From Campylobacteraceae bacterium (GTDB taxonomy: Bacteria > Campylobacterota > Campylobacteria > Campylobacterales > Campylobacteraceae): a stretch of 32,830 bases of DNA. Both the position numbers and the translations under genes were made by a program. Numbering within the stretch: position 1 is the stretch's first letter; each line of letters opens with the position of its first letter. Below the pieces are notes generated by a model. The model ran no database searches. It saw only the letters and a list, made by a program, of their open reading frames with translations, and had not been told where the DNA came from. Below are positions 101-32,830 of the stretch, in pieces. The stretch spans positions 1 to 32,830 of the forward strand of contig JAISQB010000086.1 in the NCBI GenBank assembly GCA_031274495.1, given 5' to 3'.

Positions 101-1723
101 TTAGAATTTTGTTTTAAAAGTTACCCCAAAAAAGTTACCCGTCTTAGTTACATCTTTTTTGTATGCGGGCATGGAGTAGCTTACGGTTGTTTCGAAATAT
201 TTGTTTTGTAGTTTTGCCCCTGCGGCGTAGCCTAAAAGTTGTCCGCCGAAGCTGTCGTCGTCGGATTTGATGGCACCTCCGTCTAAGGCTATGAAGTAGC
301 TATTGCCAAGCCCGTTTAAAAAGTCGAATGCCAAATTGTATGAGAGTTCGTTTCTTACGTAGTATCCGCTGTTGCCACTAAGACCCTCTTTGTTGAAGCC
401 TCTTACGCTGTAAACTCCTCCTATGCTTATCTTGTCGCTTCCAAACAGTGAGTCGTTTGTAAACTGCGAATATGCGCTAAGCGAGTATCTAAACGGCGCG
501 AAATCTTTCATCAAAGAGAGCGAGAGGTTGTATATCTCATACTCATCGTCAAGCGCTGTGGAGTGGTAGTTGTTGAAGAGATCGACGCCGCGCACATAGG
601 CTAAATTTACAAATGTGTAAAATCCGGGTACTTGATATGAGTAGTCACCGCTTAGTGAAAGCTTGCTTAAGCGGTAGCTGGAGGATTCCAGATATGCATC
701 TGCGAAATAGTTTTTTGTCCTATAGTTTGAGATAGAAACTCCCGTATTTAGGCGATGTTTTTGGTCGTGATATATTCTGTATTGCGTGTCAAAGGTATAT
801 GTTCTCGTCTCTCCTTCGGATAGAAAAACGTTATTGCCGGTCCTCACATTTTGTTTAAATCTATTATTCCTTTGCGATAGGGACAGAGTTGTTCTGCCCA
901 ATGGAAAAGAGTATTCATAACTTTTGCCTATGCTATTTTCATCTTTATAGTGTTTATCGGAGGTGTTGTAGAGTATGTTTATCTGGTCGTTGATGCCGAC
1001 AGGATTGTCAATGTTCAGTTTGCCGCTTATCTGCGCTCTGCCTGTTTTTTCGCCGCCAAAATTATCCACCCCAAGATATCCGCCAAAACGCTTTGTCGGG
1101 CTGTTTTCTATCAATATATCCGTGTATCCCACGCTCTCCGCCGGATTTAGCTTCATGCTTGCGTGGTTTGAAGGAAGCCTGTTTGCATTCTCTATCAAAA
1201 TCTCTATATCTCTGATATTCAAAAAATCCTCCGCTTTATTGACGGACGCGCTTTTAATATAGCTCTCCTGTGGCAAAATGTTTTTTATCTTACCTTCGAT
1301 AGTCTGCAAAGTGACATTGCCCTCAGCGATATTTTGAGCGGATAGATATGCTTGCGAAGTGATATAACCCTTGTCTACATATAGGGCGTTTATCTCGTTT
1401 GTGAGATTTTTCAGATCCGTCAAAGAGGTGCACTTGTCAAGATAGCGCGCGGTGATGGAGTCGATTTTTGATTTGCTTATAAGTGTTGCGCCTAAAACTG
1501 TGATATTTTTTATATCAAAGCACTGCTCGTCTTTTGAGGGCTGAAGTGGTGAAAACTCGGGGGCTTTGAAAATTTCTGTATTAGTAGAGGGATCTTTGTT
1601 TAGATTTTCAAATATATCTCTTTGGCGGTTGCGCTGTTCGTTCTCTTCAAAGACATCGGCAAGTAGGATTTGACTTAAAAGCATACATAAAGTTGTTACT
1701 TTGAAACAGGTTTTATTGAACAT
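101..1723 (-). CDS. ShlB/FhaC/HecB-family two-partner secretion transporter (TpsB)
   Basis: Predicted outer-membrane beta-barrel that exports a large TpsA exoprotein (adhesin or hemolysin type) from periplasm to surface. The 540 residues fit the family. A signal peptide occupies about residues 1-22 (hydrophobic core TLCMLLSQILLA). A linker follows, then a first POTRA domain at about 68-145 and a second at about 146-208. The 16-strand barrel starts near GGYLGVDNFGG (214-224). The family's conserved loop-6 motif is present as VRGF at 440-443, and the chain ends in Phe like many outer-membrane barrels. The ATG start is preceded by AGAGG at good spacing. It sits alone, downstream of pta-ackA but separated by a hairpin. 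The substrate gene is not in the window; it may lie to the left. Specificity of the exoprotein cannot be told from this gene. Confidence 0.9.
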   Translation of the reverse strand: MFNKTCFKVTTLCMLLSQILLADVFEENEQRNRQRDIFENLNKDPSTNTEIFKAPEFSPLQPSKDEQCFDIKNITVLGATLISKSKIDSITARYLDKCTSLTDLKNLTNEINALYVDKGYITSQAYLSAQNIAEGNVTLQTIEGKIKNILPQESYIKSASVNKAEDFLNIRDIEILIENANRLPSNHASMKLNPAESVGYTDILIENSPTKRFGGYLGVDNFGGEKTGRAQISGKLNIDNPVGINDQINILYNTSDKHYKDENSIGKSYEYSFPLGRTTLSLSQRNNRFKQNVRTGNNVFLSEGETRTYTFDTQYRIYHDQKHRLNTGVSISNYRTKNYFADAYLESSSYRLSKLSLSGDYSYQVPGFYTFVNLAYVRGVDLFNNYHSTALDDEYEIYNLSLSLMKDFAPFRYSLSAYSQFTNDSLFGSDKISIGGVYSVRGFNKEGLSGNSGYYVRNELSYNLAFDFLNGLGNSYFIALDGGAIKSDDDSFGGQLLGYAAGAKLQNKYFETTVSYSMPAYKKDVTKTGNFFGVTFKTKF

Positions 1724-5304: not shown

Positions 5305-6564
5305 TTAGCCGCCTTTGACAGCTGAACCCATCTCCCACATAGGCATAAATATACCAAGCGCCATCAGTAGAACCATACACGCCAAAAATGCCAGCAAAAT
5401 CGGCTCTATGTAGCTTGACAGGTTGTCTATTATCGCGTTAAATTTGTCCCTGAAATAGTCCGTAACTTTTGAGAGCATCATATCCAGCGTACCGCTCTGT
5501 TCACCCGCTTGTATCATCTGTATGAGCATATTTTCAAAAAGCTCCGTCTCTCTAAATGAGTCGGTCAGCGATATACCCCTTTGAACGGATATCTTAACTA
5601 ATGATAGCCTATCTTGAAGCGTCGTATTGGTGACGGTTAAAAGCGATGTGTCAAGTGCCTCCACTACGGGGATGCCGGCGTGGATTAACTCTGAGAGAAC
5701 AAGCGTAAATCTGTTTAGGTTTGAATAGAATATGATTTTTCCTATCAGATAGACCTTTAGCATATATTTATCGCACTTCGCGTGGAATATGGGATTTGTT
5801 TTGTATGAGCGAGTGATAAATAAAAACGCGACAATGCCCACCACTAAGATATATAGACCGTAATTATTCAAGGCGCTTTCTATGCCAAGCAGTATCTTTG
5901 TGGGCAACGGAAGCTTCTCTTCCGCACCCAACTGTTTAAAGATGTCTCTAAATTTTGGCACAACCTGCGTCATCAAGATAACAAACGCCACCGCCATCGC
6001 CGTGATAATTGTCAGCGGATATCGGATAGCTTTTTTAAATTTCTTTCTGTTTTCGTGAACCTCTTCAAGGATGTCCGAGAGCTTTTTCAAAGAATCCGCC
6101 ATATTACCTGTGTTTTCGCCAAGCTCTATCATAGCGATACTGATATCTCCCAACTCCTCTTTGAAAGCCGAAGCCGAAGCGGTCAAGCTAAGACCGGCAT
6201 TCAAATCATCGTCTATCTTAGCAAAAATCGACCGCAATCTCTCATCCGCCGCCGCTTTTCCCACCTCTTTGACACTGTCGTGTATAGGAATACCGGCATT
6301 TGACATAACCGCCAACTGCCTAAATGAGGCGATGAGAAATTCCACTTTGACGCTCTTTTTAAATATCGCGTCCATTATATTGTTTTTGAGCTTTTCAAGC
6401 GTTTCGTTTAACGGAGCTGATGTCTCCGTGACTCTTATGACTGCGCTGTCGGGGTTTCTTGCCTTAAAAATCTTTATCATATCCGCTCTGTTGACAGCTT
6501 GCAAGACTGTTTTTGACTGCTTGCCTTTGACGGAATATACGATTTCAAAATGTTTTAAACTCAT
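5305..6564 (-). CDS. mshG: Type II secretion/type IV pilus platform protein (MshG/GspF/CtsF-like)
   Basis: Polytopic inner-membrane platform that couples the MshE-like ATPase to pseudopilin assembly. Its 419 residues match PilC/GspF. Two T2SSF repeats are visible at about 76-199 and 283-405, each with the helical signature (FRQLAVMSNAGIPI; RFTLVLSELIHAGIPV, and ELGENTG / QAGEQSG). Membrane segments lie at about 183-203, 234-251 and 386-408, followed by the typical FMPMWEMG ending. It is the last gene of the operon and overlaps the ATPase gene by 4 bases (ATGA). In Campylobacter jejuni the gene at this position (ctsF) is needed for natural transformation; in Vibrio the equivalent mshG serves MSHA pili. 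Which role applies here is inferred from gene order only. Confidence 0.9.
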   Translation of the reverse strand: MSLKHFEIVYSVKGKQSKTVLQAVNRADMIKIFKARNPDSAVIRVTETSAPLNETLEKLKNNIMDAIFKKSVKVEFLIASFRQLAVMSNAGIPIHDSVKEVGKAAADERLRSIFAKIDDDLNAGLSLTASASAFKEELGDISIAMIELGENTGNMADSLKKLSDILEEVHENRKKFKKAIRYPLTIITAMAVAFVILMTQVVPKFRDIFKQLGAEEKLPLPTKILLGIESALNNYGLYILVVGIVAFLFITRSYKTNPIFHAKCDKYMLKVYLIGKIIFYSNLNRFTLVLSELIHAGIPVVEALDTSLLTVTNTTLQDRLSLVKISVQRGISLTDSFRETELFENMLIQMIQAGEQSGTLDMMLSKVTDYFRDKFNAIIDNLSSYIEPILLAFLACMVLLMALGIFMPMWEMGSAVKGG

Positions 6565-8315
6565 GATTTTGCCACCCTTAATACTTCATCTACTGATGTT
6601 ATGCCCTTTGCCGCTCGGATGATACCGTCTTTGAAGAGGTCTATAAATCCTTCGGCGTAGGCTTGCCTTTTAACTTCATCTTTTGTCGTGCCTTGAGCAA
6701 TCATGCTTGCGATTTTTTCACTGATAGGTAAAATCTCTGATATCATCTCCCGTCCAAGATAGCCTGTTTGTGAGCATTTTTCACAGCCTACGGCTTTGTA
6801 GAATGTGTAATTTTCGGGGATGAATGGCTTTATTCTATCTAACATATTTTTTGGTATATTAATCTTTGTTTTACAGTTGGGGCAGAGTTTTCTTATAAGT
6901 CTTTGCGCTTCTATCGCCACCAAAGCGCCGCTTATGAGGTAGGGCTCTATACCCATATCTATGATCCTTGTCACAGCGCTTACAGCGTCGTTCGTGTGAA
7001 GCGTTGAAAAGACTAAGTGTCCTGTGAGAGCCGCTTGCACGGCGATCCTAAGCGTCTCTTGATCTCTAATCTCACCTATCATTATGATATCCGGATCTTG
7101 CCTCAAAATCGAGCGCAGAGCCGAAGCGAATGTGAGATTTGCCTTTTCGTTTACGTGGACTTGCTGGACGAGGTTTAATTGATACTCTACGGGGTCTTCT
7201 ACGGTGATAATCTTTGTCTCTACGCTTTTAATGGCATTGAGCGCGGCGTAAAGCGTCGTACTCTTACCGCTTCCTGTTGGTCCTGTTACCAAAATGATAC
7301 CGTAAGGAGCCCTCATAGAGCGTGAGAATTTTTCATAATTAGCCGGGTGCATACCGAGATTTTCAAGTTTAATCATAATCTTTGATTTGTCCAAAATCCT
7401 CAAAACTATGGATTCGCCAAAAAGAGTAGGTAGGGCGGAGATACGAAAATCGTACTCTTTGCTTAATATCTTAGCTGAAAATCTACCGTCTTGCGGCTTT
7501 CTCTTTTCAGCTATATCCATATTGGACAGGAGTTTGATTCTGGACGAGAGCGGAGGGTAGATATCCTTTTCAAATACAAAAGTTTCGGCGAGCATACCGT
7601 CTATCCTGCTTCTGACTACGCAGTTTTTTTCGGTCGGCTCTATGTGGATATCGCTCGCGCGTGATAGAATGGATGTTTTTAGTATTGCCTCTATGAGTTT
7701 TAAGATACCTGAGGACTCTTGCGGATTGCTCGCCGCGCTTGTTGTTATCTCGCGTCTTATCTCGTTGATGATGCCGTTTATGCTCTCGCTAAGCTCTATT
7801 TTGTTGAAATATTTTTCAATCAAAGATGGATCGGCTATGACTGCTTTGACCATTTTTCTGTTAAAAAGTCTTTGCAATCCGTCGACTGTCGCTATATTTG
7901 AAGGATCTTTTACGGCGATGTATATATTGATGTCATCTTCTTTAACGGGCAGGGCGTCGTACTTTTTTAACTGCGCTAATGAAACTTTTTTTGATAGTTT
8001 GTAATCAATGTCGATAGCGTCTAAGTCGATATATTCAAGTCCGGACTCTTTTGCGAGAAAGCTTAAAAAAACTTCAGGCTGTATGCCAAATTCGGCTGCG
8101 ATACTGTCTAATGTGATGGTTCCGCTTTTATAAAATCCCAAAAGTAAGATAAGAAGGTCATCTTTTGAAAAATAACCGCTGTTTATTAGAACGGAGCCCA
8201 ATGAAGAGTCATCTTGCGCGGCTTCTTCTTTAATCTTTTCTGCTGTTTGTTCGTCTATAATTCTATTTCCGACAAGATAGTTAATAATAGCGTTAGTTGC
8301 GCTTGTCTCTTCCAT
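6561..8315 (-). CDS. mshE: Type II secretion/type IV pilus assembly ATPase (MshE/GspE/CtsE-like)
   Basis: Hexameric cytoplasmic ATPase that powers pilus or pseudopilus extension. Its 584 residues begin with an MshEN/T2SSE-N type region at about 1-170. That region can bind cyclic di-GMP in Vibrio MshE; whether it does here is unknown. The catalytic core follows, with Walker A GPTGSGKS (345-352), the Asp box around TVEDPVEYQ (371-379), Walker B DIIMIGE (409-415) and the His box GHLVFSTLHTND (432-443). A four-cysteine zinc site is present: C478/C481 and C511/C514. SD AAGGGGAG precedes the ATG with 8-base spacing, and 45 bases separate it from the preceding gene, the largest gap in this operon. 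Confidence 0.93.
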   Translation of the reverse strand: MEETSATNAIINYLVGNRIIDEQTAEKIKEEAAQDDSSLGSVLINSGYFSKDDLLILLLGFYKSGTITLDSIAAEFGIQPEVFLSFLAKESGLEYIDLDAIDIDYKLSKKVSLAQLKKYDALPVKEDDINIYIAVKDPSNIATVDGLQRLFNRKMVKAVIADPSLIEKYFNKIELSESINGIINEIRREITTSAASNPQESSGILKLIEAILKTSILSRASDIHIEPTEKNCVVRSRIDGMLAETFVFEKDIYPPLSSRIKLLSNMDIAEKRKPQDGRFSAKILSKEYDFRISALPTLFGESIVLRILDKSKIMIKLENLGMHPANYEKFSRSMRAPYGIILVTGPTGSGKSTTLYAALNAIKSVETKIITVEDPVEYQLNLVQQVHVNEKANLTFASALRSILRQDPDIIMIGEIRDQETLRIAVQAALTGHLVFSTLHTNDAVSAVTRIIDMGIEPYLISGALVAIEAQRLIRKLCPNCKTKINIPKNMLDRIKPFIPENYTFYKAVGCEKCSQTGYLGREMISEILPISEKIASMIAQGTTKDEVKRQAYAEGFIDLFKDGIIRAAKGITSVDEVLRVAKS

Positions 8316-8360: not shown

Positions 8361-9158
8361 CTACTTATATTCACCGCTTCTGATACTTTTTAGCAAATTA
8401 GATGCTTTGGATGCGCTTTTGGCATAATCGGTATATATCTCCAAAGCCCGTATAGCGTCATCTCTTTTGCCAAGTTTTACCTGACTTTTGGCAAACATAA
8501 TCCAGCTTAATTCATTTTGTGAATCTATCTCGTTGGCTTTCAGTGCCCACTCTAACGACTTTCTATAATTTTTTCTATCAAAGTATTCCTCGGAAATCAT
8601 CGTAGCAAAGACAATATTATTTGAAGCTTCAAACTTTTTGATTAACTCTTCTATATTTTGTATATCGTTTGTCTCTATAATAATCTTTTTGTCCACAGGA
8701 GGCGCGATAAGTTCTCGCGTTTTGGGAAGTTGTTTAGTAGCGTTTGTACCGTTTTCTGCTATCTTTTTGGGAGCGGTTGCTGTTGTGTTATCGCTACTTG
8801 AAAGATTTGAAGTGTTTGAAATAGGCGGGATGGTTGCATTTGGTGTTGTTGATTCTATCGCTTGTGGTATTGCGCTCTCATTTGCACCTAAGCTGCTGTT
8901 GGCTTCTGCGGACGATTCATTTTGGATAATTGTCGCATTGGTCGGGTCACTTAACACAAGAGTTTGATTTGTGGCGTTATGAGTTATATTTGCCTCATTT
9001 TTGCTACTTAGGCTATCTTCCAGTACAAGGAACAAAAGCACAAACGACGCTATAAAAAGAAGCGCAAGAAAGACAACTACAATCTTTCTAAATATGATTT
9101 TGCTTTTATACTCTTTCCAGCGCTCTTCCAACGCCACTATCTCTTCGGTTTTAATCAT
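8361..9158 (-). CDS. mshN: MshN/CtsX-positioned bitopic TPR protein with a sequon-rich periplasmic linker
   Basis: No strong family motif, so the call rests on position between the AAA ATPase and the assembly ATPase, where mshN (Vibrio) or ctsX (Campylobacter) lies. The 265 residues divide into a short cytoplasmic N-terminus, one membrane helix at about 25-47, a low-complexity Asn/Ser/Thr/Ala/Pro linker at about 51-150, and a C-terminal helical region at about 165-262 with TPR-like repeats (pairs such as RKNYRKSLEWALKANEID and KLGKRDDAIRALEIY). Topology N-in places the linker and TPR in the periplasm. In the linker 13 of 14 Asn are in N-X-S/T (X not Pro), suggesting N-glycosylation. It overlaps the preceding gene by 8 bases. 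The TPR may contact the secretin or MshI/J; this is inference. Confidence 0.75.
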   Translation of the reverse strand: MIKTEEIVALEERWKEYKSKIIFRKIVVVFLALLFIASFVLLFLVLEDSLSSKNEANITHNATNQTLVLSDPTNATIIQNESSAEANSSLGANESAIPQAIESTTPNATIPPISNTSNLSSSDNTTATAPKKIAENGTNATKQLPKTRELIAPPVDKKIIIETNDIQNIEELIKKFEASNNIVFATMISEEYFDRKNYRKSLEWALKANEIDSQNELSWIMFAKSQVKLGKRDDAIRALEIYTDYAKSASKASNLLKSIRSGEYK

Positions 9159-9972
9159 TTATCAGTCCTGTTGCGATTCCTGCCATCTCAATCAATTTTC
9201 TCCTTTTGTTTTTGTCGGAGACAATTGATGGTTTGTTGGATTCGTAGTATTCGTAAATTTCAAATAGTCTAAATAGAAGTTTGTTTACCGTTCTAAGGTT
9301 GCCTTTTGTTATGGAAAAAATGAACGGAATATGGTGCTTGACATATGTGAGATAGTCAAATTTATTGTGATACAAAAACTTTTTTTCCAGATATGAGCGA
9401 ACTTCGGCCATTTCGGAATCACCAAGCTCTATACTCTCCCAAATTCTTGTTTTAAAGTAATCTTTTGCCAAAATCTCCTCTTTTTCCGTTTTGTGAACGG
9501 TAAAGAGAAATTTAAATAGCCTCGTATCGGCCATCAAACGGACTTTTTCTATCAAATCCTGTGGATATAGTTGAGCCTCATCTAAAAGAACCGTCACTAT
9601 GGTCTGTTCCGAAATCTTTGGTATCTTTGCTTTATATATTGTCAAAAACTCTTCATAACCGCTAAAGTGGGGCGCTTTTACGGCAAATACCTCTTCAAAT
9701 AGCGATTTTAAAAACTGTTTTTCATCAAAAAATGGTCTTGGAAAAAATACGATAGGATACTTGCCTCTAAGGTCGCTATATATCTTTTCCAGTAAAAATG
9801 TCTTACCACTACCGGGTTTACCGTAAAAAAGGACAAGTTTTAGCGGTTTGCTGATGGCGCCGGATAGTCTATCGTAAGCGATAACGGATTTGTCAAGATT
9901 TATATAATCAAAGACTTTGCCTTCGACAAATATATTCTTGACATCCGAAAATCTGTTGAAAATATCGCTCAT
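9151..9972 (-). CDS. mshM: AAA+ ATPase of the pilus/competence operon (MshM/CtsP/ExeA-like)
   Basis: A 273-residue P-loop ATPase of the ExeA/MshM type. Walker A GKPGSGKT is at 51-58 and Walker B LLDEAQ at 129-134. A sensor-like segment follows around LFTVHKTEK, and the chain ends in a helical lid region. No membrane helix or peptidoglycan-binding domain is visible, so this is the short cytoplasmic form, as with Campylobacter CtsP. ExeA-type proteins help localise or assemble the secretin, and CtsP is required for DNA uptake in C. jejuni (family knowledge). The start overlaps the secretin stop by one base (TAATG), and the 3' end overlaps the mshN-like gene. Confidence 0.85.
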   Translation of the reverse strand: MSDIFNRFSDVKNIFVEGKVFDYINLDKSVIAYDRLSGAISKPLKLVLFYGKPGSGKTFLLEKIYSDLRGKYPIVFFPRPFFDEKQFLKSLFEEVFAVKAPHFSGYEEFLTIYKAKIPKISEQTIVTVLLDEAQLYPQDLIEKVRLMADTRLFKFLFTVHKTEKEEILAKDYFKTRIWESIELGDSEMAEVRSYLEKKFLYHNKFDYLTYVKHHIPFIFSITKGNLRTVNKLLFRLFEIYEYYESNKPSIVSDKNKRRKLIEMAGIATGLIND

Positions 9973-11576
9973 TATCTACCAAGAGACTTATAACCCAGAT
10001 CGTTTAAGGATTTAGCGGAGATGGCTGACGCATCATCCTCGCCTATAACTTTTGGGGTAATAATAAATACAAGCTCTTTTGTCTTCGTCTCTTCTCCGGC
10101 ATACTTAAACGCGTAGCCAAGTATAGGTATGCTGCCAAGGACCGGAACACCTTTGTTAGTATGTATAACGGAGTTTGTTATAAGACCGCCAAGCACGATA
10201 GTGTCGCCGTTTTTGACATTGACAACAGTCGAGAGTTTCTTTTCTGTCGTGTCGGGGGCTATTCTTCTTGGTGTTAGCTGTTTTTGGTTGTCTTCTATAT
10301 ATTTAAAATCGCTGATGGAAGGGTTGATTCTTAACATGATGTTATTATCGTCTGATACCGTCGGCAATAAATTAAGTAAAATGCCGATAAATACGGAGTA
10401 GTTGGTAACATCTTCTGATATAACGCTGCTACCGCTTCCGGCGTTACTTGTTGTCTCTGTCGTTTGATAATTTATCGTATCACCTACTGTGATGAGTGCT
10501 TGTTGGTTATTGAGTGTTAAAACTTTCGGATTGGATACGACATTGGTTTTGCCTTTCTCTTTCAAAAAGTCAAAAACGCCTTGCATTGAAAAACTTGTTC
10601 CAAACGCAAAGCCGACAAGGTTACCAACATCAATAGTGCTACCGGAACCTGTCGTAGTAGGGCTTCCGGATCCTGCCTGTGCACCTGAGCCCACTAAATT
10701 CCAACCATTGGGAGTATTCCATGTTCCGCCTTGGCTTATACCTATGGAGTCAGCCCTTGCCTCTCCCGTAAAGCCAAGCTGAAATTTTGACCAATCTATA
10801 CCCATTCTGTTGTCGTCATTCAAATCAACAGATAGGATAGTAACATCAATTAAAACCTGTTTTAAGAGTCTCTTTTTGAGTGCGTCAAAATAGTCTTCAG
10901 CTCTTTTTAACTGCTCTTTTGTGGCCGTTATGGTTACAAGTCCGGCTTTTGGATTGATAATAGGCGGTTTTGCGACATATATCTCTCTGCCGGTATTTAC
11001 CACAGCTTGCACTTCGGCGTCGATAGTCTTCCAGAAGTCAAACTCCTCTTTAACTGTTATGGAGTTATCAGCTTTATCCAAAGCCTCGCTATTCCCGCTA
11101 CCTGCCTCTTGAGGTGTAGCGCTCACGGAAGCGCTCATAGTGGCGGTTCCTTGTCTGATGGAGGTTATATAATCAACTCTAAAACTTTTTGTTTCCAAAG
11201 CAGATAATTTGAGAACACTATTTTTGTAATCGTAATTTAGATTATTTGAAGCGAGTAAAACATCCAACGTTTCAAAGAGGGATTTATCTTTAATGTTTGT
11301 GCCGTATAGCGGTTGATTTGCTATCTCTATCGCCGGAGCGTCGGCAAAAACAACGCTAAAATCGCACAATTCCGATAGTTGCGAGAGCACTTCGGTCAAT
11401 TGCACATTTGCGTTTATCTTTATATTTAAGTTCTTATACTCGCACCCTTTTTTTGTCTGCAGCGTCTTGTTGTCTTGAGGCGCCGCAAGAGAGTATTGAG
11501 GTAATAATGCAAGTAATGCCGCACAAGCCGCAAAAGCAACGCTTTTCCTAATTTGTCGTAATGATACTATTTTCAT
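9972..11576 (-). CDS. mshL: Outer-membrane secretin (MshL/GspD/CtsD-like)
   Basis: Forms the outer-membrane ring through which a pilus or pseudopilus (and possibly incoming DNA) passes. Residues 1-31 are a signal peptide ending near SLAA, without a convincing lipobox, unlike some lipidated MshL proteins. An STN-type domain lies at about 55-120 and a secretin N1 domain at about 195-235. The secretin core runs from about 330 to 520, with VSNPKVLTLNNQQA, the VGDTINYQTT strand and the hallmark VPVLGSIPILGYAFK followed by ELVFIITPKVI. A Gly/Ser/Thr-rich insert of about 45 residues sits around 275-320. The gene starts 29 bases inside the upstream mshK-like gene, with SD AAGGGAAAC. In this gene order it corresponds to ctsD of C. 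jejuni. Confidence 0.93.
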   Translation of the reverse strand: MKIVSLRQIRKSVAFAACAALLALLPQYSLAAPQDNKTLQTKKGCEYKNLNIKINANVQLTEVLSQLSELCDFSVVFADAPAIEIANQPLYGTNIKDKSLFETLDVLLASNNLNYDYKNSVLKLSALETKSFRVDYITSIRQGTATMSASVSATPQEAGSGNSEALDKADNSITVKEEFDFWKTIDAEVQAVVNTGREIYVAKPPIINPKAGLVTITATKEQLKRAEDYFDALKKRLLKQVLIDVTILSVDLNDDNRMGIDWSKFQLGFTGEARADSIGISQGGTWNTPNGWNLVGSGAQAGSGSPTTTGSGSTIDVGNLVGFAFGTSFSMQGVFDFLKEKGKTNVVSNPKVLTLNNQQALITVGDTINYQTTETTSNAGSGSSVISEDVTNYSVFIGILLNLLPTVSDDNNIMLRINPSISDFKYIEDNQKQLTPRRIAPDTTEKKLSTVVNVKNGDTIVLGGLITNSVIHTNKGVPVLGSIPILGYAFKYAGEETKTKELVFIITPKVIGEDDASAISAKSLNDLGYKSLGR

Positions 11577-11952
11577 TTGTTTCCCTTAAAAATAATTCCA
11601 ATCTTCTATTTTCATTACCCAAAACAACGCTTTTTTGTTTTATGGCAATAACTCTCAAGTCGCCTATTGACGAACCTTGCCCCAACCAAGAGTCATTAAT
11701 TTTGACCTTCTTTTCAACTATGGCTTTCAGACTAAATGTCGGAGCAGTAGTGTTGCCCGTCTTCTCTGTCACAGCCGTTTGGATAACAGCAAAGGGGTTG
11801 GATAGCTTATCTATCTCCTGATTTAAAATACCGACCCGTATCTCGTTAATTTCATTGAAATACCTATCGTATTTTGCTATATCCGCACTGCTGTCGCCGA
11901 ACAAATTAAGCGTGACGGCCAACATGATAACTATCAAAAAAGACTTTTTCAA
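11548..11952 (-). CDS. mshK: Small periplasmic pilus assembly protein (MshK/PilP/CtsR-like)
   Basis: About 134 residues with a signal or anchor sequence (KKSFLIVIMLAVTLNLFG). The C-terminal beta-rich segment VKINDSWLGQGSSIGDLRVI resembles the PilP/MshK/GspC homology region that bridges the inner-membrane complex and the secretin. The frame is open to a TTG at 11967. The in-frame TTG at 11950-11952 is preferred because it overlaps the mshJ-like stop (TTGA), has GGGGGA 7 bases upstream, and puts Lys-Lys right before the hydrophobic stretch. No ATG is available near the N-terminus. Position between the mshJ-like gene and the secretin supports the role. Sequence similarity alone would be weak. 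Confidence 0.7.
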   Translation of the reverse strand: MKKSFLIVIMLAVTLNLFGDSSADIAKYDRYFNEINEIRVGILNQEIDKLSNPFAVIQTAVTEKTGNTTAPTFSLKAIVEKKVKINDSWLGQGSSIGDLRVIAIKQKSVVLGNENRRLELFLRETNENSIITTN

Positions 11953-12590
11953 TATAACATCCCCCAAACCGCGAGTTTCACATCGGTATCAAGTACGCTT
12001 GTGGTATTGCTTGATATCGTGCTCTCATAAACATCAACGACCAATTGACTCTCTTCAAGAGCATTGATAAATTTTATGACATTATGAAAAGTCCCGCGCG
12101 AATTTATATCTATATTCAAGACCTGCTCAATTTTTCCATTTTCCAAATCTTTATTGTCTTTAAAATCGTTCTCTATCTTGATAATATTGATCTTATACTC
12201 TTTTGCCAAAGCAGTTATTCTATCCATAAATGAAGCCCAACTTTGATCATTAAACAGAAGATAAGAGAGTTCTTTTAATTTGCCATCCACATAGCCGTTT
12301 ACATATCTTGCGTCTTTTAGCAGTTCGGTATTGCGTTTGATATCGCCGTCAAGCTGTGCTACTTGCGGGGCACCTTCAAATATATACTTCTCTTCACTGC
12401 TAAGCTTACTTGTTATGTCTCTCAACTTTGCCGTATTTGTATTGTAAAAACTTTCCGCTTCCGGAAATACAAAGGAGTAGATAAAAAAAACGATTAAGCC
12501 TACTACTATAACGTAGATAAGGTAAACTTCGGTCACCTTTTTTGTCGAAAGATAGTTGTCTAATTTGTCTAAAAGCGTATCGTCATGCAT
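11949..12590 (-). CDS. mshJ: Inner-membrane alignment protein (MshJ/PilO-like)
   Basis: A 213-residue bitopic protein with a short cytoplasmic start, one membrane helix at about 22-42 (VYLIYVIVVGLIVFFIYSFVF), a charged helical stretch at about 46-110, and a C-terminal ferredoxin-like half with alternating strands (IKIENDFKDNKD; VLNIDINSRGTFHNVIKFINALEES). The last part is typical of PilO/GspM-type proteins. PilO-type proteins pair with PilN-type proteins to form the periplasmic alignment complex. Its ATG overlaps the stop of the MshI-like gene by one base (TAATG), which supports a stoichiometric partner role. Family assignment rests on topology, the C-terminal pattern and gene order. Confidence 0.75.
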   Translation of the reverse strand: MHDDTLLDKLDNYLSTKKVTEVYLIYVIVVGLIVFFIYSFVFPEAESFYNTNTAKLRDITSKLSSEEKYIFEGAPQVAQLDGDIKRNTELLKDARYVNGYVDGKLKELSYLLFNDQSWASFMDRITALAKEYKINIIKIENDFKDNKDLENGKIEQVLNIDINSRGTFHNVIKFINALEESQLVVDVYESTISSNTTSVLDTDVKLAVWGMLY

Positions 12591-14143
12591 TATAGTATCT
12601 CCATATTGATGTCGCTTCTATACCTGCTGGTATTGGCGTCTTTGCTTATCTCTTTTGTTCTTATGGCATATTTTTTTGTATTGGCTATAGCGTTTATAAG
12701 TTCCGTGAATCGTTTTTCATCAGGACCTACCAGTGATAGCACTATCGTATTATTGTGCTGTTCTATCTTTTCTATTTTTACATTATTGCTGTTTGAAAGT
12801 TCGATGATATCCGATATGACTGTCGCTTTCATCGCATAATCAACTCTTTTAGAGCGTATTTCCTCCAGCAAGCCGGTTCTCATATCAAGAATATTTTTTT
12901 CATTTTTTAGATCTTGAGTAAGTTTGTTACTTTGCTCTTCCAAGCTCTTAAGTTGACTTCTTAAGTTATCAGCCCGTGGTTTTATATCATCACTATATTT
13001 TGTATTTTTTAGATCGTAAGCTACGGATTTATATATACCAAAACCGTATTGATATGCAGGATATGCCAGTGAGAGCGCGAGCGCTACTCCGGCTACTGCC
13101 AGAAATTTACCCGCCGGTCTTTTTGATAGAGGATCGGGGCGTTTGAAAATAGTAAAGTTGGAAGCCGAATCGCCCGTGTCGGATTCTATATATATTTGAG
13201 CGGTTAAAGCCATCATCGTATGTATCTGGTCTATATACTGCTCTTTGGAATTGATAGATATATTGAAATTAAAATCAAGCGCCTCAATCCCCATATAACT
13301 TTTAGCGTATTCATTCATACCGTATATGATGCCGATATCCGTACCGATATATACTCTTGCGATTTGCGAAATATTGCAATATCTTTTCGCGTAAACGGAG
13401 ATATCGTTGATGTACAAAAATATCTCACCGAAAAGCTTCATAAACTGCTGTTGGTATTTTATGTCAGTCGTATTTAGTCCATCTTTTCTAAGCATCGCGA
13501 AAAACACCTCTTCATCTACCCTTTCTCCAAGCAGCGCGCAAAATCTCTCGTTTATCTCGCGAAGCGAGTAGCGCAAAGATTTAGAGTATAGATAGTGACC
13601 GTTTTGATAAAGAGCTAAAAACGCGTCGTTTTTTTGGAAATATATAAAACACTCCGCACCGCCGTGTTGGTCTATGATCCCTTTTTTATAAAGCGCACCG
13701 ATAAGGAACGGAGCTGCGGTGATATAATCAACATAAGATATCTTTTTCTTTAGCGGTAGGAAGTTTTGGACTATCGTGTCGGTATTGACAGCGAATACAT
13801 CATATATGTAATTTTTTTGGTCACTTGCTGAGGCCGCCGTTTCTATATAGTTGATTTTATAGTTTATGGACGAGTCCAACCCCAAGTCTTCATAAGCTTT
13901 TATTTCTAGCGCATCTTTAAGATCGCTCTCAGGAATGCTCCTGCTTATTTCAAGTGTTCCGGAAATGATATCTTTTGTCGGTATGTAAGATATAAAAAAA
14001 CTATTCTTTTTAAAAGATGATTTATGTAAATCATTTTCTATCATCTCGTTTGCACTAAACTTGTAAGATGTAGCAGAATACGGATCTATTGTGATTATAG
14101 ACGCAGAGGAACTTTCAACTTTTTCTTTTCTTAACTTTGCCAT
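12590..14143 (-). CDS. mshI: MshI-like pilus biogenesis protein, PilM-like and PilN-like parts in one chain
   Basis: First gene of the operon, 517 residues. Residues about 15-325 look like a divergent actin-like PilM/GspL cytoplasmic domain, with segments such as DALEIKAYEDLGLD, VDYITAAPFLIGALY and FIYFQKNDAFLALYQNGHYL. A membrane helix lies at about 346-366 and a coiled coil at about 374-435. The final 80 residues (MKATVISDIIELSNSNNV onward) resemble the PilN/GspL periplasmic ferredoxin-like fold. Thus one protein would link the cytoplasmic ATPase side to the periplasmic alignment complex, as GspL does. The start ATG has AAGGATGG upstream. A T-tract plus TACAAT in the 58-base gap to era may be the operon promoter. 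The actin-like part is too divergent for its nucleotide motifs to be named with confidence. Confidence 0.8.
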   Translation of the reverse strand: MAKLRKEKVESSSASIITIDPYSATSYKFSANEMIENDLHKSSFKKNSFFISYIPTKDIISGTLEISRSIPESDLKDALEIKAYEDLGLDSSINYKINYIETAASASDQKNYIYDVFAVNTDTIVQNFLPLKKKISYVDYITAAPFLIGALYKKGIIDQHGGAECFIYFQKNDAFLALYQNGHYLYSKSLRYSLREINERFCALLGERVDEEVFFAMLRKDGLNTTDIKYQQQFMKLFGEIFLYINDISVYAKRYCNISQIARVYIGTDIGIIYGMNEYAKSYMGIEALDFNFNISINSKEQYIDQIHTMMALTAQIYIESDTGDSASNFTIFKRPDPLSKRPAGKFLAVAGVALALSLAYPAYQYGFGIYKSVAYDLKNTKYSDDIKPRADNLRSQLKSLEEQSNKLTQDLKNEKNILDMRTGLLEEIRSKRVDYAMKATVISDIIELSNSNNVKIEKIEQHNNTIVLSLVGPDEKRFTELINAIANTKKYAIRTKEISKDANTSRYRSDINMEIL

Positions 14144-16402: not shown

Positions 16403-16947
16403 TGTTTTTTGTCATCCTCTAATATCAAAGTTTTTATCGAGCGGTTTGTGTAGATGCAGATATCCGCCGCTATCTCAAGACTCTCTTTTATCAAAGCCTC
16501 TTCGTCCATATCGGTGTGTCTGTTTAAGGCGCGCGCGGCTGAAATGGCGTAGTTGCCGCCGCTGCCTATCGCGGCTATTTGTCCGTCTTCGGGCTCTACG
16601 ACATCTCCTGTACCGCTTAGTATAAATATATGTTCACGGTTTAAAACTATCATCATAGCCTCTAAGCGCCTCAAATACTTATCTTTGCGCCACTCTTTAG
16701 AAAATTCTACGGCGGATTTTAAAAGGTCGCCCTTTTTTTGCTCCAGTATCTTTTCAAACATATCAAATAGATTGAAAGCGTCCGCCGTACTTCCCGCAAA
16801 TCCGCCAAGAACACTGCCGTTATAGAGCTTTCTTATCTTGACGGCGTTGCCTTTGAGGACGGTGTTGCCGAAAGTTACCTGTCCGTCCCCGCCGATGACC
16901 GATTTTCTCTTGCCCTTTATGGCTAAAATTGTAGTCGCGTGAAACAT
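16399..16947 (-). CDS. hslV: HslV peptidase subunit of HslUV protease
   Basis: Proteasome beta-type threonine peptidase, 182 residues. The reading starts MFHATTIL, so the catalytic Thr is expected at position 5 and three residues beyond the initiator Met must be removed. In E. coli-type HslV the Thr follows the Met directly. The same MFxATT start is familiar from Campylobacter and Helicobacter HslV. Other family segments: [49 protein letters not shown], and [17 protein letters not shown]. It overlaps hslU by 4 bases and lies 2 bases after rplI, so all are cotranscribed. Confidence 0.97.
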
Positions 16948-16949
16948 AT

Positions 16950-17396
16950 CTATTCGCCTATAATCTCTACTGTGAGATTTGAGTGTATGCCGTGTCCGAG
17001 CTTTATCTGAATATCAAAAATACCAGTACTCTTTATCGGCAACTCTATCTCTATATGTTTTTTGTCTATCTCTATCTTGTGCTGCGTTTCGAGCTCTTTG
17101 GCTATCTCCTCTTTCGTGATAGCGCCAAACAAGCTTCCGTTCGCGCCCAAAGAGCGTCTTATGACAAGTTTTATGTTACTAAGCGTCTTATCTACGATTT
17201 TTAGCTGCTCTATCTGTGCTTGTGCGTCTGCTGCTTTCTTCTTTTGTTCGGCTTCATACTGGCGCACAACATCATTTGTGGCAAGTTTCGCAAGTCCTTT
17301 TCCCAAAAGAAAATTTTTGCCGTAGCCGTCCTTGACCTCTTTTATCTCGCCTGTTTTGCCAAGCCCTTTTACATCTTTTAAAAGTAAAACCCTCAT
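16950..17396 (-). CDS. rplI: 50S ribosomal protein L9
   Basis: Large-subunit protein binding 23S rRNA near the L1 stalk base; 148 residues as usual. The N-terminal domain has the L9 signature region ([20 protein letters not shown], then [13 protein letters not shown]). A Lys-rich connecting helix follows at about 50-75, then the C-terminal domain with [30 protein letters not shown] precedes the ATG. It sits 9 bases after argG and 2 bases before hslV, an unusual operon partner compared with the rpsF-rpsR-rplI group of many bacteria but the same as in C. jejuni. Confidence 0.97.
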
Positions 17397-17405
17397 CGCC
17401 TCTCC

Positions 17406-18626
17406 CTACTGTTGTTTTTTATTCTTTCCGCTTATGATAAATCTAAGAGCGTTGAGCTTTATAAAGCCCGCCGCGTCTTTTTGGTTGTAAACTTCATCCT
17501 CTTCGAAGGTGCTAAACGCGGTATTGAAGAGGTTGTCCGTTTTTGAATCCCTGCCTATAACTATCACATTGCCTTTATAAAGTTTAAGTCTTACCGTTCC
17601 GTTTACGCTTGTTTGCGTCTTGTCTATCGCGGCTTGGAGCATTTCGCGCTCTGGGCTGAACCAAAAACCGTTATATATGAGGCTCGCGTAGCGCGGCATC
17701 AATTCATCTTTCAAATGCGCCGCTTCCCTATCAAGCGTTATGCTCTCTATCGCACGGTGCGCTTTTAGCATTATCGTGCCTCCGGGGGTTTCATAGCAGC
17801 CGCGTGATTTCATACCTACATACCTGTTTTCTACGATATCTGTTCTGCCGATACCGTTCTTCGCGCCGAGTTCATTTAGTGCTGTTAGCATTTGCGCGGG
17901 GCTTAAATCTTTGCCGTTTAATTTCACGGGGTCGCCGTTTTTGTACTCTATCTCTATAATTTCTGCTTTATCGGGAGCATTTTTGGGATCTACCGTCCAT
18001 CTCCACATACTATCTTCAGGCTCTTTGCTTGGGTCTTCCAAGACAAGTCCTTCGTAAGAGATATGTAGTAGATTGGCGTCCATAGAGTAGGGCGATTTCT
18101 CTCCTCTTTTTTCTATGCTGATGCCGTTTTGTTGTGCGTATTGCAGGAGTTTTTCGCGGGAGTTCAAATCCCACTCTCTCCACGGCGCAATGATGGTAAG
18201 GTCTGAGTTAAATCTTAAGTATCCTATCTCAAACCTAACCTGATCATTTCCCTTACCGGTAGCTCCGTGAGAAACTGCGTCTGCGCCCGTAAGAGCCGCT
18301 ATCTCGGCTTGTCTTTTTGCTATCAATGGGCGCGCTATGGAAGTTCCCAAAAGATATTCACCCTCATAAAGCGCGTTTGCCCTAAACATAGGAAAAACAT
18401 ACTCCCTTACAAACTCCTCTTTCAAATCTTCTATAAAAATATTCTCCGGTTTTATACCAAGCGAGATGGCTTTTTTGCGCGCCGGCTCGACCTCTTCGCC
18501 TTGTCCTATATCGGCTGTGAAAGTGACGACCTCACACTTATACTCATCTTGCAGCCATTTTAAAATAATACTCGTATCAAGTCCGCCCGAATAGGCTAAA
18601 ACTACCTTTTTGACGCTTTTTTTCAT
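17406..18626 (-). CDS. argG: Argininosuccinate synthase
   Basis: Joins citrulline and aspartate with ATP to make argininosuccinate, the penultimate step of arginine synthesis. Its 406 residues fit the family. The N-terminal ATP-pyrophosphatase loop AYSGGLDTS is at 11-19. Other motifs are [18 protein letters not shown], the substrate-binding stretch [17 protein letters not shown], and [17 protein letters not shown]. The start ATG has GAGG upstream. It is the first gene of the group running to era and is transcribed divergently from the lipoprotein gene at 18753. No arginine operator was recognised in the 126-base divergent region. Confidence 0.98.
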
Positions 18627-29921: not shown

Positions 29922-30650
29922 TTATTTTTTTAGCTCCGCGACCTCTTCGCAACCCTTTTGCTCTTCCAAGTCGCACGCTTTGCCAAAATACTCAAGAGCT
30001 TTGTTTGCATTTTTTTTAACACCTTCGCCATTATGATATATTGCACCTAAATTATAGCAACCGCCGCCATCTTTTCCGTCGCAGGCTTTTTTGAAAAATT
30101 CGGCAGCTTTAAGATAATCTTGTTTAACGCCGTTGCCGTCATAATGCATTGCACCCAAACTATAGCAGCCGTCGATCTCTTTTCCATCGCAAGCTTTTTT
30201 GTACAATTCGGCAGTTTTAAGATAGTCTTGTTTAACGCCGTTGCCAAAATCATACATTAGACCCAAGCTATAACAACCCGTAGCATATCCTTTATCGCAA
30301 GCTTTTTTGTACAGTTCGGCAGCTTTAAGATAGTCTTGCTTAACGCCGTTGCCGCCATCATACAATGTGCCCAAACTGTAGCAACTAACAGTCTCTCCTC
30401 CATCACAAGCTTTTTTGTATAACTCAGCGGCTTGCAAGTAGTCTTGCTTAACGCCTTTGCCAAAATCATACATCGCTCCTAAAGTGAAGCAACTAAAATT
30501 GCGTTTGCTATCGCAGGATCTTTGAAGAAGTTGAACCACTTTCGTATAATCGCCGCTATCGTAAGCCTTTAGCGCATCATCAACATCATCCGCAAAAGTT
30601 ACACTTGTAAATAGAGCTATCCCAACAAGACACTTCAAAACTGTTTTCAC
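29922..30650 (-). CDS. Secreted cysteine-rich Sel1-repeat protein (Hcp-like), paralog 1
   Basis: A 242-residue protein with a signal peptide (MKTVLKCLVGIALFTSVTFA) followed by 36-residue Sel1-like alpha-alpha repeats. Each repeat contains a Cys-x7-Cys pair, as in ACDGGETVSC and ACDKGYATGC. Six such pairs are present. In Helicobacter Hcp proteins the equivalent pairs form disulfides that brace each repeat. Typical repeat text is LGTLYDGGNGVKQDYLKAAEL. Hcp proteins are periplasmic or secreted, and some bind penicillins or act on host cells; function here is unknown. The frame extends to a TTG at 30653, but the GTG at 30650 is preferred because paralog 2 starts with GTG at the same place and both have GGGAG five bases upstream. 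Confidence 0.9.
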   Translation of the reverse strand: MKTVLKCLVGIALFTSVTFADDVDDALKAYDSGDYTKVVQLLQRSCDSKRNFSCFTLGAMYDFGKGVKQDYLQAAELYKKACDGGETVSCYSLGTLYDGGNGVKQDYLKAAELYKKACDKGYATGCYSLGLMYDFGNGVKQDYLKTAELYKKACDGKEIDGCYSLGAMHYDGNGVKQDYLKAAEFFKKACDGKDGGGCYNLGAIYHNGEGVKKNANKALEYFGKACDLEEQKGCEEVAELKK

Positions 30651-30683
30651 CAAAACTCCCTTTTTATAAAATAATTACTTGTA

Positions 30684-30689
30684 ATTTTA
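30684..30689 (-). promoter_or_regulatory. Promoter -10 box (TAAAAT) of Hcp-like paralog 1
   Basis: On the minus strand TTTTTGT then TAAAAT (30684-30689) lies about 33 bases before the GTG start. The same 16-base block (30683-30698) recurs before paralog 2 (32005-32020), so it is conserved between the two duplicated units. T-tract plus -10 is the Campylobacterota style. The rest of the 161-base gap holds no gene. Confidence 0.55.
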
Positions 30690-30811
30690 ACAAAAATTCA
30701 TTTTATTTGATTTAAATGATAGAAATATTTTTTATTAATTTATATAGTGTGTAATTTTAGACAGTGCAAAGTGATAATGGGGTGCACAAATCTTGCGATG
30801 ACGAAAAATAG

Positions 30812-31972
30812 TTATTTTTTTAATCTCGCGTAACTTTCGCAGCCTAATTGAAATTTCAAATCACACGCCTTGCTGTAATATTCAAGCGCTTTACTCATGT
30901 CCCTTGTGACACCATTGCCGTTATGATACACTACGCCCAAGTTATGGCAACTAAGAGCCACGCCGCCATCGCAAGCTTTCTTGAAAGCTTCAGTAGCTTC
31001 GAGATAATCCTGCTTAACGCCTTTGCCGCCTGTATATATTATGCCCAAATCGCTACAGCCGCTAACATTTCCGCCATCACACGCTTTTTTGAAAAATTCT
31101 GCAGCCTTGAGATAATCCTGTTCGACACCTTTGCCGCCCGCATATATCATACCCAAATTGCCACAGCTACCGGTATTTCCGCCGTCACACGCTTTTTTGA
31201 AAGCTTCGGCAGCTTTGAGATAGTCTCGCTTGATACCTTTGCCGCCCGCATATATTATGCCCAAATCACCGCAACTATCAGTATGTCCGCCATCGCAAGC
31301 TTTTTGAAAAGATTCGGCAACTTTAAAATAGTCCTGCTTGACACCTTTACCCTCACTATATATCACACCCAAATTGCTACAACCAATAGCATCTCCGCCG
31401 TCACACGCTTTTTTGAAAAATTCGGCAGCTTTAAAATAGTCCTGCTCGACACCTTTACCTTCGCTATATATTGCACCTAAATTTCTACAGCCAATAGCAT
31501 CTTCGTTATCGCAAGTTTTTTTGAAAAATTCAGCAGCCTTAAAATGATCTTGCCCAACACCCTCACCGCCATCATACATTGAAGCCAAATTGCTGCAACC
31601 ATCAATGCTTCCGCCATCACAAGCTTTTTTGTACAGTTCGACAGCTTTAAAATGGTCTTGCCCAACGCCTATACCAAAATTATACATTGCGCCCAAGCTA
31701 TAGCAGCCAACAGCCTCTTCTACATCACACGCTCTTTTGTAAAATTCGACAGCTTTAGGATAATCTTGTTTAACGCCATTACCAAAATCATACATTGCAC
31801 CCAAATTAAAGCAGCTAAAACCATGTCCGTCATCGCAAGCTTTTTGAAAAAACAAAGCCGCCTTCGTGTAATTACCGGACATGTAAGCTTCAAATGCCTC
31901 ATCGGCATCATCCGCAAAAGCCGCGCCTATAAATAAGACTATCATTGCAAGACACTTTAAAACTATTTTCAC
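30812..31972 (-). CDS. Secreted cysteine-rich Sel1-repeat protein (Hcp-like), paralog 2
   Basis: The longest of the three paralogs, 386 residues, with signal peptide MKIVLKCLAMIVLFIGAAFA and ten Cys-x7-Cys Sel1-type repeats. Examples are ACDDGHGFSC, TCDNEDAIGC, ACDGGNTGSC and ACDLKFQLGC. Repeats in the middle (about residues 150-340) are nearly identical (IYAGGKGVEQDYLKAAEFFK and variants), pointing to recent internal repeat amplification. The C-terminal cap LGCESYARLKK matches that of paralog 3. Start is GTG with GGGAG five bases upstream. Predicted as a periplasmic or secreted solenoid for protein or peptidoglycan binding; no catalytic motif is evident. Confidence 0.92.
   Translation of the reverse strand: MKIVLKCLAMIVLFIGAAFADDADEAFEAYMSGNYTKAALFFQKACDDGHGFSCFNLGAMYDFGNGVKQDYPKAVEFYKRACDVEEAVGCYSLGAMYNFGIGVGQDHFKAVELYKKACDGGSIDGCSNLASMYDGGEGVGQDHFKAAEFFKKTCDNEDAIGCRNLGAIYSEGKGVEQDYFKAAEFFKKACDGGDAIGCSNLGVIYSEGKGVKQDYFKVAESFQKACDGGHTDSCGDLGIIYAGGKGIKRDYLKAAEAFKKACDGGNTGSCGNLGMIYAGGKGVEQDYLKAAEFFKKACDGGNVSGCSDLGIIYTGGKGVKQDYLEATEAFKKACDGGVALSCHNLGVVYHNGNGVTRDMSKALEYYSKACDLKFQLGCESYARLKK
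30812..31972 (-). repeat. 108-bp periodic coding repeats in Hcp-like paralog 2
   Basis: The DNA shows about ten imperfect copies of a 108-bp unit (36 codons), each containing motifs like GCTTTTTTGAAA, TTTGCCGCC and TATATTATGCCCAAAT on the plus strand. The same unit occurs six times in each of the flanking paralogs. It reflects Sel1 repeat amplification and gives a substrate for recombination between the three genes. Confidence 0.85.
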
Positions 31973-32005
31973 TCAAACTCCCTTTACAAAAAAGAATTAC
32001 CGACA

Positions 32006-32011
32006 ATTTTA
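32006..32011 (-). promoter_or_regulatory. Promoter -10 box (TAAAAT) of Hcp-like paralog 2
   Basis: On the minus strand TTTTTGT followed by TAAAAT (32006-32011) lies about 33 bases before the GTG start, at the same spacing as before paralog 1. A second shared block, TTTATATAGTGT at 32061-32072 (30739-30750 in the other copy), lies farther upstream and may be another regulatory site. The 213-base gap 31973-32185 otherwise holds only the repeated hairpin. Confidence 0.55.
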
Positions 32012-32096
32012 ACAAAAATTTATTGTATTTGGTCTAAATAGTTGAAATATTTCTTATTGATTTATATAGTGTATAATTTAGGCAGAGTGAGGTGGC

Positions 32097-32126
32097 GAGG
32101 AATCTTTTTGGCTATAAAGATTCCTC
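32097..32126. repeat. Second copy of the mrdA-terminator hairpin
   Basis: Stem GAGGAATCTTT (32097-32107) / AAAGATTCCTC (32116-32126), loop 8 bases, followed on the plus strand by ATTTTCTACGAGAATATCGG. The same stem, the sequence CTATAAAGATTCCTCATTTT, and the downstream AATATCGGAA element occur after mrdA at 29854-29910. It therefore looks like a duplicated terminator carried along with a Sel1 cassette. It could serve as a terminator for paralog 3, though the minus strand lacks a T-tail. Confidence 0.7.
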
Positions 32127-32185
32127 ATTTTCTACGAGAATATCGGAACGATGAAATATAATGCGCAAATTTAGCGATGAAATAG

Positions 32186-32830
32186 TTAGTTCTTTAATCT
32201 CGCATAACTTTCGCAACCTAACTGCTCTTCCAGATCACACGCCTTGCCGTAATATTCAAGCGCCATATTTGTATCTTTTTTGGTACCCACTCCGTGCTCA
32301 TATATTATGCCCAAATTGGCACAACCTTTGGAATCTTCGCCATCGCAAGCTTGCTTAAATAATGCAACAGCCTTAAAATAGTCCTGCTTAACACCCTCAC
32401 CGCCAAAGTACCTTCCGCCCAAATTACTGCAACCCAAAGCATATCCTCCGCCACAAGCTTTTTTAAATAGTGCAACAGCTTTAAAGTAGTCTTGCCCAAT
32501 GCCCTCGCCCTCGCTATACTTTGTACCCAAACTGTTACAACTTGCAAAATCTTCGCCGTCGCAAGCTTTTTTGTAAAATTCGACAGCTTTAATATGGTCT
32601 TGCTTAACGCCCTCGCCATAACTATATGTTTCACCCAAATAGCCGCAACCAGTAGCGTTTCCGCTATCACAAGATTTTTTGAATAATCCGATAGCCCTTT
32701 TTGCGTCTTTTTTAACGCCCATCCCATAAATATACATCGAACCCAATATATTACATCCATAATTATTTCCGCCATCGCAAGCTTTTTGAAATAGTTGAGC
32801 CCCTTTTGCGCTGTCATTATTTTTTAAAGC
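32186..32830 (-). CDS. Secreted cysteine-rich Sel1-repeat protein (Hcp-like), paralog 3, 5' part cut by window edge
   Basis: The frame is open from the stop at 32186 to the right edge; 214 residues are visible and the signal peptide and start lie outside. The visible N-terminal end reads ALKNNDSAKGAQLFQKACDG, which aligns with the region just after the signal peptide in paralogs 1 and 2, so only some 20-30 residues are missing. Six Cys-x7-Cys pairs are present (ACDGGNNYGC, SCDSGNATGC, ACDGEDFASC, ACGGGYALGC, ACDGEDSKGC, ACDLEEQLGC). The C-terminal cap CESYARLKN is close to that of paralog 2. Function unknown, as for the other two. Confidence 0.9.
   Translation of the reverse strand, partial: ALKNNDSAKGAQLFQKACDGGNNYGCNILGSMYIYGMGVKKDAKRAIGLFKKSCDSGNATGCGYLGETYSYGEGVKQDHIKAVEFYKKACDGEDFASCNSLGTKYSEGEGIGQDYFKAVALFKKACGGGYALGCSNLGGRYFGGEGVKQDYFKAVALFKQACDGEDSKGCANLGIIYEHGVGTKKDTNMALEYYGKACDLEEQLGCESYARLKN

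Follow-up and report, generated by a model that had tools for sequence, protein, structure and literature searches.

Sequon-packed periplasmic tethers in a genus of Campylobacteraceae point to C. jejuni-type N-glycosylation with an apparently relaxed acceptor rule

Machines of the cts type have their AAA and GspE-type ATPases on the cytoplasmic side and a secretin in the outer membrane, with CtsX spanning the inner membrane; in the ctsD-P-X-E-F order, we take ctsF to hold the last place. In other bacteria, exported and disordered low-complexity linkers rich in Ser/Thr are O-glycosylated and dense in glycosylation sites. The C. jejuni loci are Cj1474c (ctsD), Cj1473c (ctsP), Cj1472c (ctsX) and Cj1471c (ctsE), with a CtsX of 195 aa (PMC8308473). 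Among the 33 glycoproteins of C. hepaticus, 9 carry at least two sites, and the examples named have three (PMC9816155). Naturally relaxed PglBs are those of Desulfovibrio gigas, D. desulfuricans, D. vulgaris, C. coli and C. upsaliensis (PMC4894442). The enzymes of C. coli, C. upsaliensis and D. gigas are relaxed despite keeping R331, and R147 and nearby residues have been proposed to matter for the choice of the residue at -2 (PMC4894442).

Here, we analysed a stretch of 32,830 nt (the window) from a draft genome, 99% complete, whose 97 contigs add up to 1.81 Mb. The named relatives in the genus of this genome, g1, are metagenome bins called 'Campylobacteraceae bacterium', presumably of termite-gut origin to judge by how they are named, and genus g2 is taken as the C. 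jejuni group, judging from its gene content and PglB likeness. An operon on the minus strand of the window has the gene order secretin, AAA ATPase, X, GspE-type ATPase, GspF-type protein, which is the order ctsD, ctsP, ctsX, ctsE, ctsF. It encodes a CtsD-like secretin (9972..11576; PF00263 and TIGR02519 MshL above the cut-off), a CtsP-like AAA ATPase (9151..9972; PF13401 above the cut-off), a CtsX-like bitopic inner-membrane protein of 265 aa (8361..9158), a CtsE-like ATPase of the GspE/PilB family (6561..8315; PF00437, PF05157) and a CtsF-like membrane protein of the GspF/PilC family (5305..6564; PF00482). Three upstream genes assigned by position to the same operon (11548..14143, minus strand) encode proteins of 139, 213 and 517 aa that gave no match in Pfam or NCBIfam and, by position and layout only, could be small accessory, PilO-like and PilM/N-like components. 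The 265-aa protein is at the ctsX place, between the CtsP-like and CtsE-like genes; it has homologues in 135 of 150 genomes of the family and matches several g2 genomes (E 1e-13 to 4e-17). The initial annotation had called it MshN/CtsX-like; the secretin of the operon scores above the MshL cut-off, while no MshN model was reported for the 265-aa protein by NCBIfam or Pfam, which gave only TPR-like matches below the cut-off. Elsewhere in the window, a 540-aa protein (101-1723, minus strand) resembles outer-membrane transporters of two-partner secretion (TpsB/ShlB-type), and at least three adjacent genes (29922-32746, minus strand) encode Sel1-type repeat proteins with the repeat xxYxxACDGGxxxGCxxLGxxYxxGxGVKQD, at least two of the products having signal peptides.

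The CtsX-like protein has three parts, all encoded on the minus strand. Residues 1-46 (9021..9158) comprise the cytoplasmic N-terminus and a transmembrane helix (~24-46) within a helix that AlphaFold2 models at residues 4-56 (pLDDT mostly 80-95); basic residues ahead of the helix suggest an N-in orientation. Residues 47-152 (8703..9020) are the putative periplasmic linker, rich in Asn, Ser, Thr and Ala, poor in Lys and Arg, low in identity among orthologues and disordered in the AlphaFold2 model (pLDDT <50 across residues 57-148). Residues 168-262 (8373..8657) form a helical TPR domain (pLDDT 94-98 from residue 171) for which the Foldseek matches are TPR domains (prob 1.00), and which would lie in the periplasm. 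Antisense to the linker is an open frame of 109 aa (8638-8967, plus strand), probably a side effect of the Asn/Ser/Thr/Ala richness of the coding strand.

The translation of the linker contains 13 N-X-S/T sequons within residues 57-141 (8736..8990, minus strand). As the initial annotation had stated, the 14 Asn at residues 54, 57, 61, 64, 74, 80, 87, 93, 107, 115, 118, 124, 136 and 139 all, except N54, belong to sequons in which X is not Pro; residues 51-142 include 28 Ser/Thr among 92, and Glu occupies -2 only at N57 and N87. Its chance expectation of about four sequons is likewise borne out by shuffles of residues 47-152 (3.6 ± 1.5); none of 300,000 shuffles reached 13, the maximum being 12. 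No other spacing tried (N-S/T, N-x-x-S/T, N-x-x-x-S/T or the reversed S/T-x-N) exceeds expectation, so that the excess is one of the sequon itself and not of Ser/Thr richness. Eight further Asn outside the linker, including those of the TPR domain, contribute no sequon. No tandem repeat was found in the DNA, and the codons at +2 are mixed (ACN, TCN and AGY, in 7 of 13 g1 species parsed); thus, a microsatellite effect or other DNA repeat origin is rejected. Three sequon pairs are spaced by three residues (61/64, 115/118 and 136/139) and may not both be used.

The packing is found throughout g1. The 13 full-length orthologues carry 6-13 linker sequons each and, pooled over congeneric species that are non-independent samples, 98 sequons vs 41.4 ± 5.2 expected (z 10.9), with control spacings at z -0.2 to 1.1. 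N-x-T is found 68 times vs 26 expected and N-x-S 30 times vs 16, while NP[S/T] is found 0 times vs 2.3 expected. The 13 proteins, with 8-14 Asn each beyond the linker, have a single sequon there in total. Sequon Asn occupy 40 alignment columns, 21 of them in single species, and linker identity is 17-70% in species pairs with a TPR identity of 87-96% (29% and 87%, respectively, between the window's protein and one relative). Where an aligned Asn is kept, the +2 residue stays Ser/Thr in 366 of 510 comparisons; for the remaining Ser/Thr of the linker, the figure is 697 of 2,088. This contrast depends on the alignment and is supportive only. As read from these sequences, selection keeps the number of sequons in the linker high while their positions drift. 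Shuffles, control spacings and turnover thus agree with the earlier suggestion of selection for sequons; of the expectation that homologues would keep sequons amid a drifting linker, the number is upheld, but individual positions turn over. In the fourteenth g1 species (G057, L015), the CtsX copy lacks the membrane helix and linker and begins with a signal-peptide-like stretch, and might be degenerate or re-purposed.

In genera g4, g6 and g8, the CtsX linkers approach those of g1 in Asn content (14-15%; Ser+Thr 16-18%), and their sequon placement is random (z 1.3, -0.8 and 1.1); no STT3 protein was found in g8 among the four genomes sampled. Those of g2 and g5 show a small excess (z 2.6 and 2.7) on few sequons, the g2 linkers being short and Lys/Glu-rich with 0-2 sequons each. 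Rich linkers with randomly placed sequons, which the initial annotation held to count against selection, therefore exist in other genera, but not in g1.

A second protein, P0004, is a 'divergent polysaccharide deacetylase' (PF04748) unrelated to CtsX, with a juxtamembrane linker that is also packed with sequons. The 13 g1 species, again non-independent, have 56 sequons in it vs 12.6 expected (z 14); in the other genera, each represented by at most three or four species, the counts are 18 vs 6.0 in g2 (z 5.6), 19 vs 8.4 in g4 (z 4.2), 19 vs 6.2 in g5 (z 6.1) and 8 vs 7.3 in g8, where no STT3 was found (z 0.3). Asp or Glu precedes these sequons at -2 in 17/18 cases in g2, 13/19 in g5, 9/19 in g4, 4/7 in g6 and 3/3 in g7, that is, in 46/66 over the OST-bearing genera, vs 9/56 in g1 (Fisher p 2e-9). 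Thus, the acidic -2 rule of C. jejuni PglB appears to be written into the substrates of the C. jejuni group, and it is nearly absent from those of g1. In the g1 CtsX linkers, Asp/Glu at -2 (13/98) equals composition; the g1 PF04748 linker is poor in Asp/Glu (4%), and an acidic -2 residue in 16% of its sequons exceeds composition (p 5e-4). Exported proteins of the window's genome likewise show a mild acidic bias at -2 (19.4% vs 11.9%, OR 1.78, p 5e-5). These two observations suggest a relaxed rule in which some bias remains, not indifference, so that g1 specificity may be biased, not free.

The sequon excess extends to exported proteins as a class. A survey covering 864 kb, about half of the window's genome, in which genes were called and classed mechanically, so that the figures are rough, gave 436 sequons vs 351 expected in proteins with an N-terminal signal or anchor (z 5.4; 413 vs 346 after removal of CtsX and a SurA-like protein), 146 vs 146 in polytopic proteins and 958 vs 880 in cytoplasmic ones, a small excess of 1.09x. 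For exported proteins, the g8 genome G018, in which no STT3 was found, gave 107 vs 118 expected, and the C. jejuni-group genome G088 gave 153 vs 132. The initial annotation had tied the packing to a competence or pilus complex. This specificity is rejected, because the unrelated PF04748 linker is equally packed and the whole exported class has an excess: sequon packing is general among membrane-tethered exported proteins in g1, and the tie to competence is incidental.

Other sequon-rich exported proteins are encoded in the same genome. The SurA-like protein just mentioned, which contains SurA_N and is periplasmic (L126:6965-8101, minus strand, G000:C6), has an insert with 8 sequons vs 2.1 expected, the majority of them preceded by an acidic residue at -2. 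Most of the relatives aligned have only a short insert or none; it is hence lineage-specific, and the protein was rejected as the third example shared by the genus. Local clusters of up to 7 sequons in 60 residues occur in large exported proteins and lipoproteins (L135:10373-14986 and L163:5970-10088, plus strand; L167:10828-12270 and 16639-18183, minus strand), and an exported TPR-like protein (L147:14412-15677, plus strand) has the predicted mature N-terminus ANQTNQTNQTG.

The oligosaccharyltransferase (OST) that the initial annotation had proposed to look for is present. The sole STT3 protein found, a PglB identified by Pfam and structure matches (C2:20342-22618; L042:342-2618), scores 89.6 bits with PF02516, 180 with PF21436 and 26.7 with PF18527 (cut-off 26.5), above the Pfam cut-offs for the N-terminal and core domains of STT3; among solved structures, C. 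lari PglB is closest to it (E 7e-129). It keeps all catalytic residues, with D56, R147, D154, D156, E319, R375 and WWD 463-465 in place (C. lari numbering); the equivalog model for C. jejuni-type PglB, NF050801, gave 527 bits, below its cut-off of 1300. A counterpoint to relaxation is that R147 and R331 are retained, the latter as Lys in two species. Among the 11 sufficiently complete g1 PglBs, the R331 equivalent is Lys in that of the window's genome and in one relative, and Arg in nine. Loss of R331 is therefore rejected as the cause of relaxation, all the more because relaxed OSTs with Arg are known (PMC4894442). Of 123 columns conserved in 52 other PglBs, 14 are altered in g1, and four of these (146, 149, 328 and 332) are no more than three residues away from R147 or R331 (p 0.015, uncorrected); a further g1-specific change, G57S, directly follows D56. 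Together, the substrate -2 counts and the g1-specific changes near R147/R331 support the relaxation at -2 that the initial annotation had implied, as far as sequences can tell.

Downstream of pglB are a phosphomannomutase-like gene, the gene for a PglK-like flippase, close by, and CDP-glucose genes; upstream are LPS-core-like and other glycosyltransferase genes. The best solved match of the flippase is C. jejuni PglK (E 1.5e-131), and its score is below the NF050066 equivalog cut-off (549 vs 1000). A PglC-type initiator (PF02397) is absent from the window's genome (99% complete) and from 8 of its 13 relatives, but present in five of the 14 species. Without such an initiator, the donor lipid must start another way. 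The window's genome encodes two PF00953 proteins (L161, G000:C85:1629-2177, and G000:C32:34700-35155), one of which is presumably MraY, and the donor lipid is perhaps started there by a PF00953 protein of the WecA type. Glycan initiation may thus be WecA-like in part of g1 and PglC-like in five other species.

In our view, the best explanation of these patterns is probably that the linkers are tethers selected for N-glycosylation, on which a naturally relaxed PglB acts. A strict PglB, which would glycosylate the few D/E-X-N-X-S/T sites and no others, the remaining sequons being noise or otherwise kept, would accord with the retention of R147 and R331/K331, with the odds ratio of 1.78 for Asp/Glu at -2 in exported proteins, and with the glycopeptides of C. 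hepaticus, all of which match D/E-X-N-X-S/T (PMC9816155). Strictness is unlikely, however, given that 85 of the 98 g1 CtsX sequons, the total of which is 2.4x expectation, lack Asp/Glu at -2, and that 47 of the 56 g1 PF04748 sequons lack an acidic -2 residue present in 17 of 18 in the orthologous linker of the C. jejuni group.

Selection might also have favoured the motif for a reason other than PglB, be it a turn-prone linker repeat, another Ser/Thr modification or a cytoplasmic N-glycosyltransferase. This is quite improbable considering the exact N-X-S/T spacing, the lack of NP[S/T] (0 vs 2.3) and the stronger excess for Thr than for Ser, as well as the restriction of the excess to exported stretches, its absence where STT3 was not found, and the acidic -2 rule seen in the C. 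jejuni-group orthologues. Finally, the richness of the linker in Asn, Ser and Thr and the shared ancestry of the species would fit an ordinary low-complexity linker shaped by composition and chance and passed on to relatives. That account is scarcely credible and we reject it: no shuffle among 300,000 reproduced the count, control spacings are at chance, more than half of the sequon columns (21/40) belong to one species only in linkers far more divergent than the TPR domain (17-70% vs 87-96% identity), there is no DNA repeat, and similarly rich linkers in other genera are random.

Under the preferred explanation, selected tethers and a relaxed PglB, CtsX would act in DNA uptake, with its linker as an N-glycosylation tether: a disordered stretch of ~105 residues that would run through the periplasm from the membrane anchor to the TPR domain. 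PglB, fed by the PglK-like flippase, would transfer glycans to many of the linker sequons. The g1 enzyme would be naturally relaxed at -2, since g1 sequons ignore the Asp/Glu rule that orthologous linkers obey elsewhere. The glycans would lengthen the linker, make it hydrophilic and shield it from proteases, resulting in a bottle-brush spacer, and the PF04748 deacetylase would use the same tether device. More broadly, we lean, if only slightly, towards a scenario in which the whole genus switched its PglB from D/E-X-N-X-S/T to a eukaryote-like N-X-S/T, building densely N-glycosylated bottle-brush tethers on inner-membrane-anchored proteins, the DNA-uptake machine included, and in which orthologous linkers record the switch, their sequons obeying the acidic rule in relatives with an OST and showing no selection where none was found. 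If this is true, there would be a natural clade of relaxed single-subunit OSTs close to the bacterial enzyme studied most, and the positions next to R147 and R331 would be candidates in a question left open earlier (PMC4894442). Orthologous disordered linkers would then offer a method, namely, a genome-readable evolutionary record of OST acceptance, and dressing long periplasmic tethers would suggest itself as one purpose of bacterial N-glycosylation.

Compared with known systems, what would be new here is C. jejuni-type N-glycosylation with an apparently relaxed acceptor rule, combined with sequon-packed tethers. As in C. jejuni, the OST is a homologous single-subunit enzyme with all catalytic residues and WWD, a PglK-like flippase is encoded nearby, and the targets are exported and often inner-membrane proteins, the PF04748 linker being packed in the C. 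jejuni group too. By contrast, the g1 linkers, read as substrates, are packed without the acidic -2 rule, the window's genome has no PF02397 initiator, and, instead of a single compact pgl cluster, we see pglB and pglK among LPS-core and CDP-sugar genes. Glycoproteins of the C. jejuni type have few sites each, whereas up to 13 sequons are found here. The described relaxed PglBs also accept N-X-T without an acidic -2 residue, and some keep an R331-equivalent Arg, but their relaxation was shown by an assay in E. coli (PMC4894442), whereas here it is deduced from native substrates and for a whole genus. The CtsX-like protein shares with C. jejuni CtsX (Cj1472c) the place between ctsP and ctsE and, with g2 proteins, C-terminal homology, but it has 265 aa rather than 195, and the g2 linkers are short, with 0-2 sequons each. 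O-glycosylated linkers of other bacteria are similarly disordered, exported and dense in sites; the g1 linkers differ in that the motif is N-X-S/T and the genome encodes an STT3-type enzyme.
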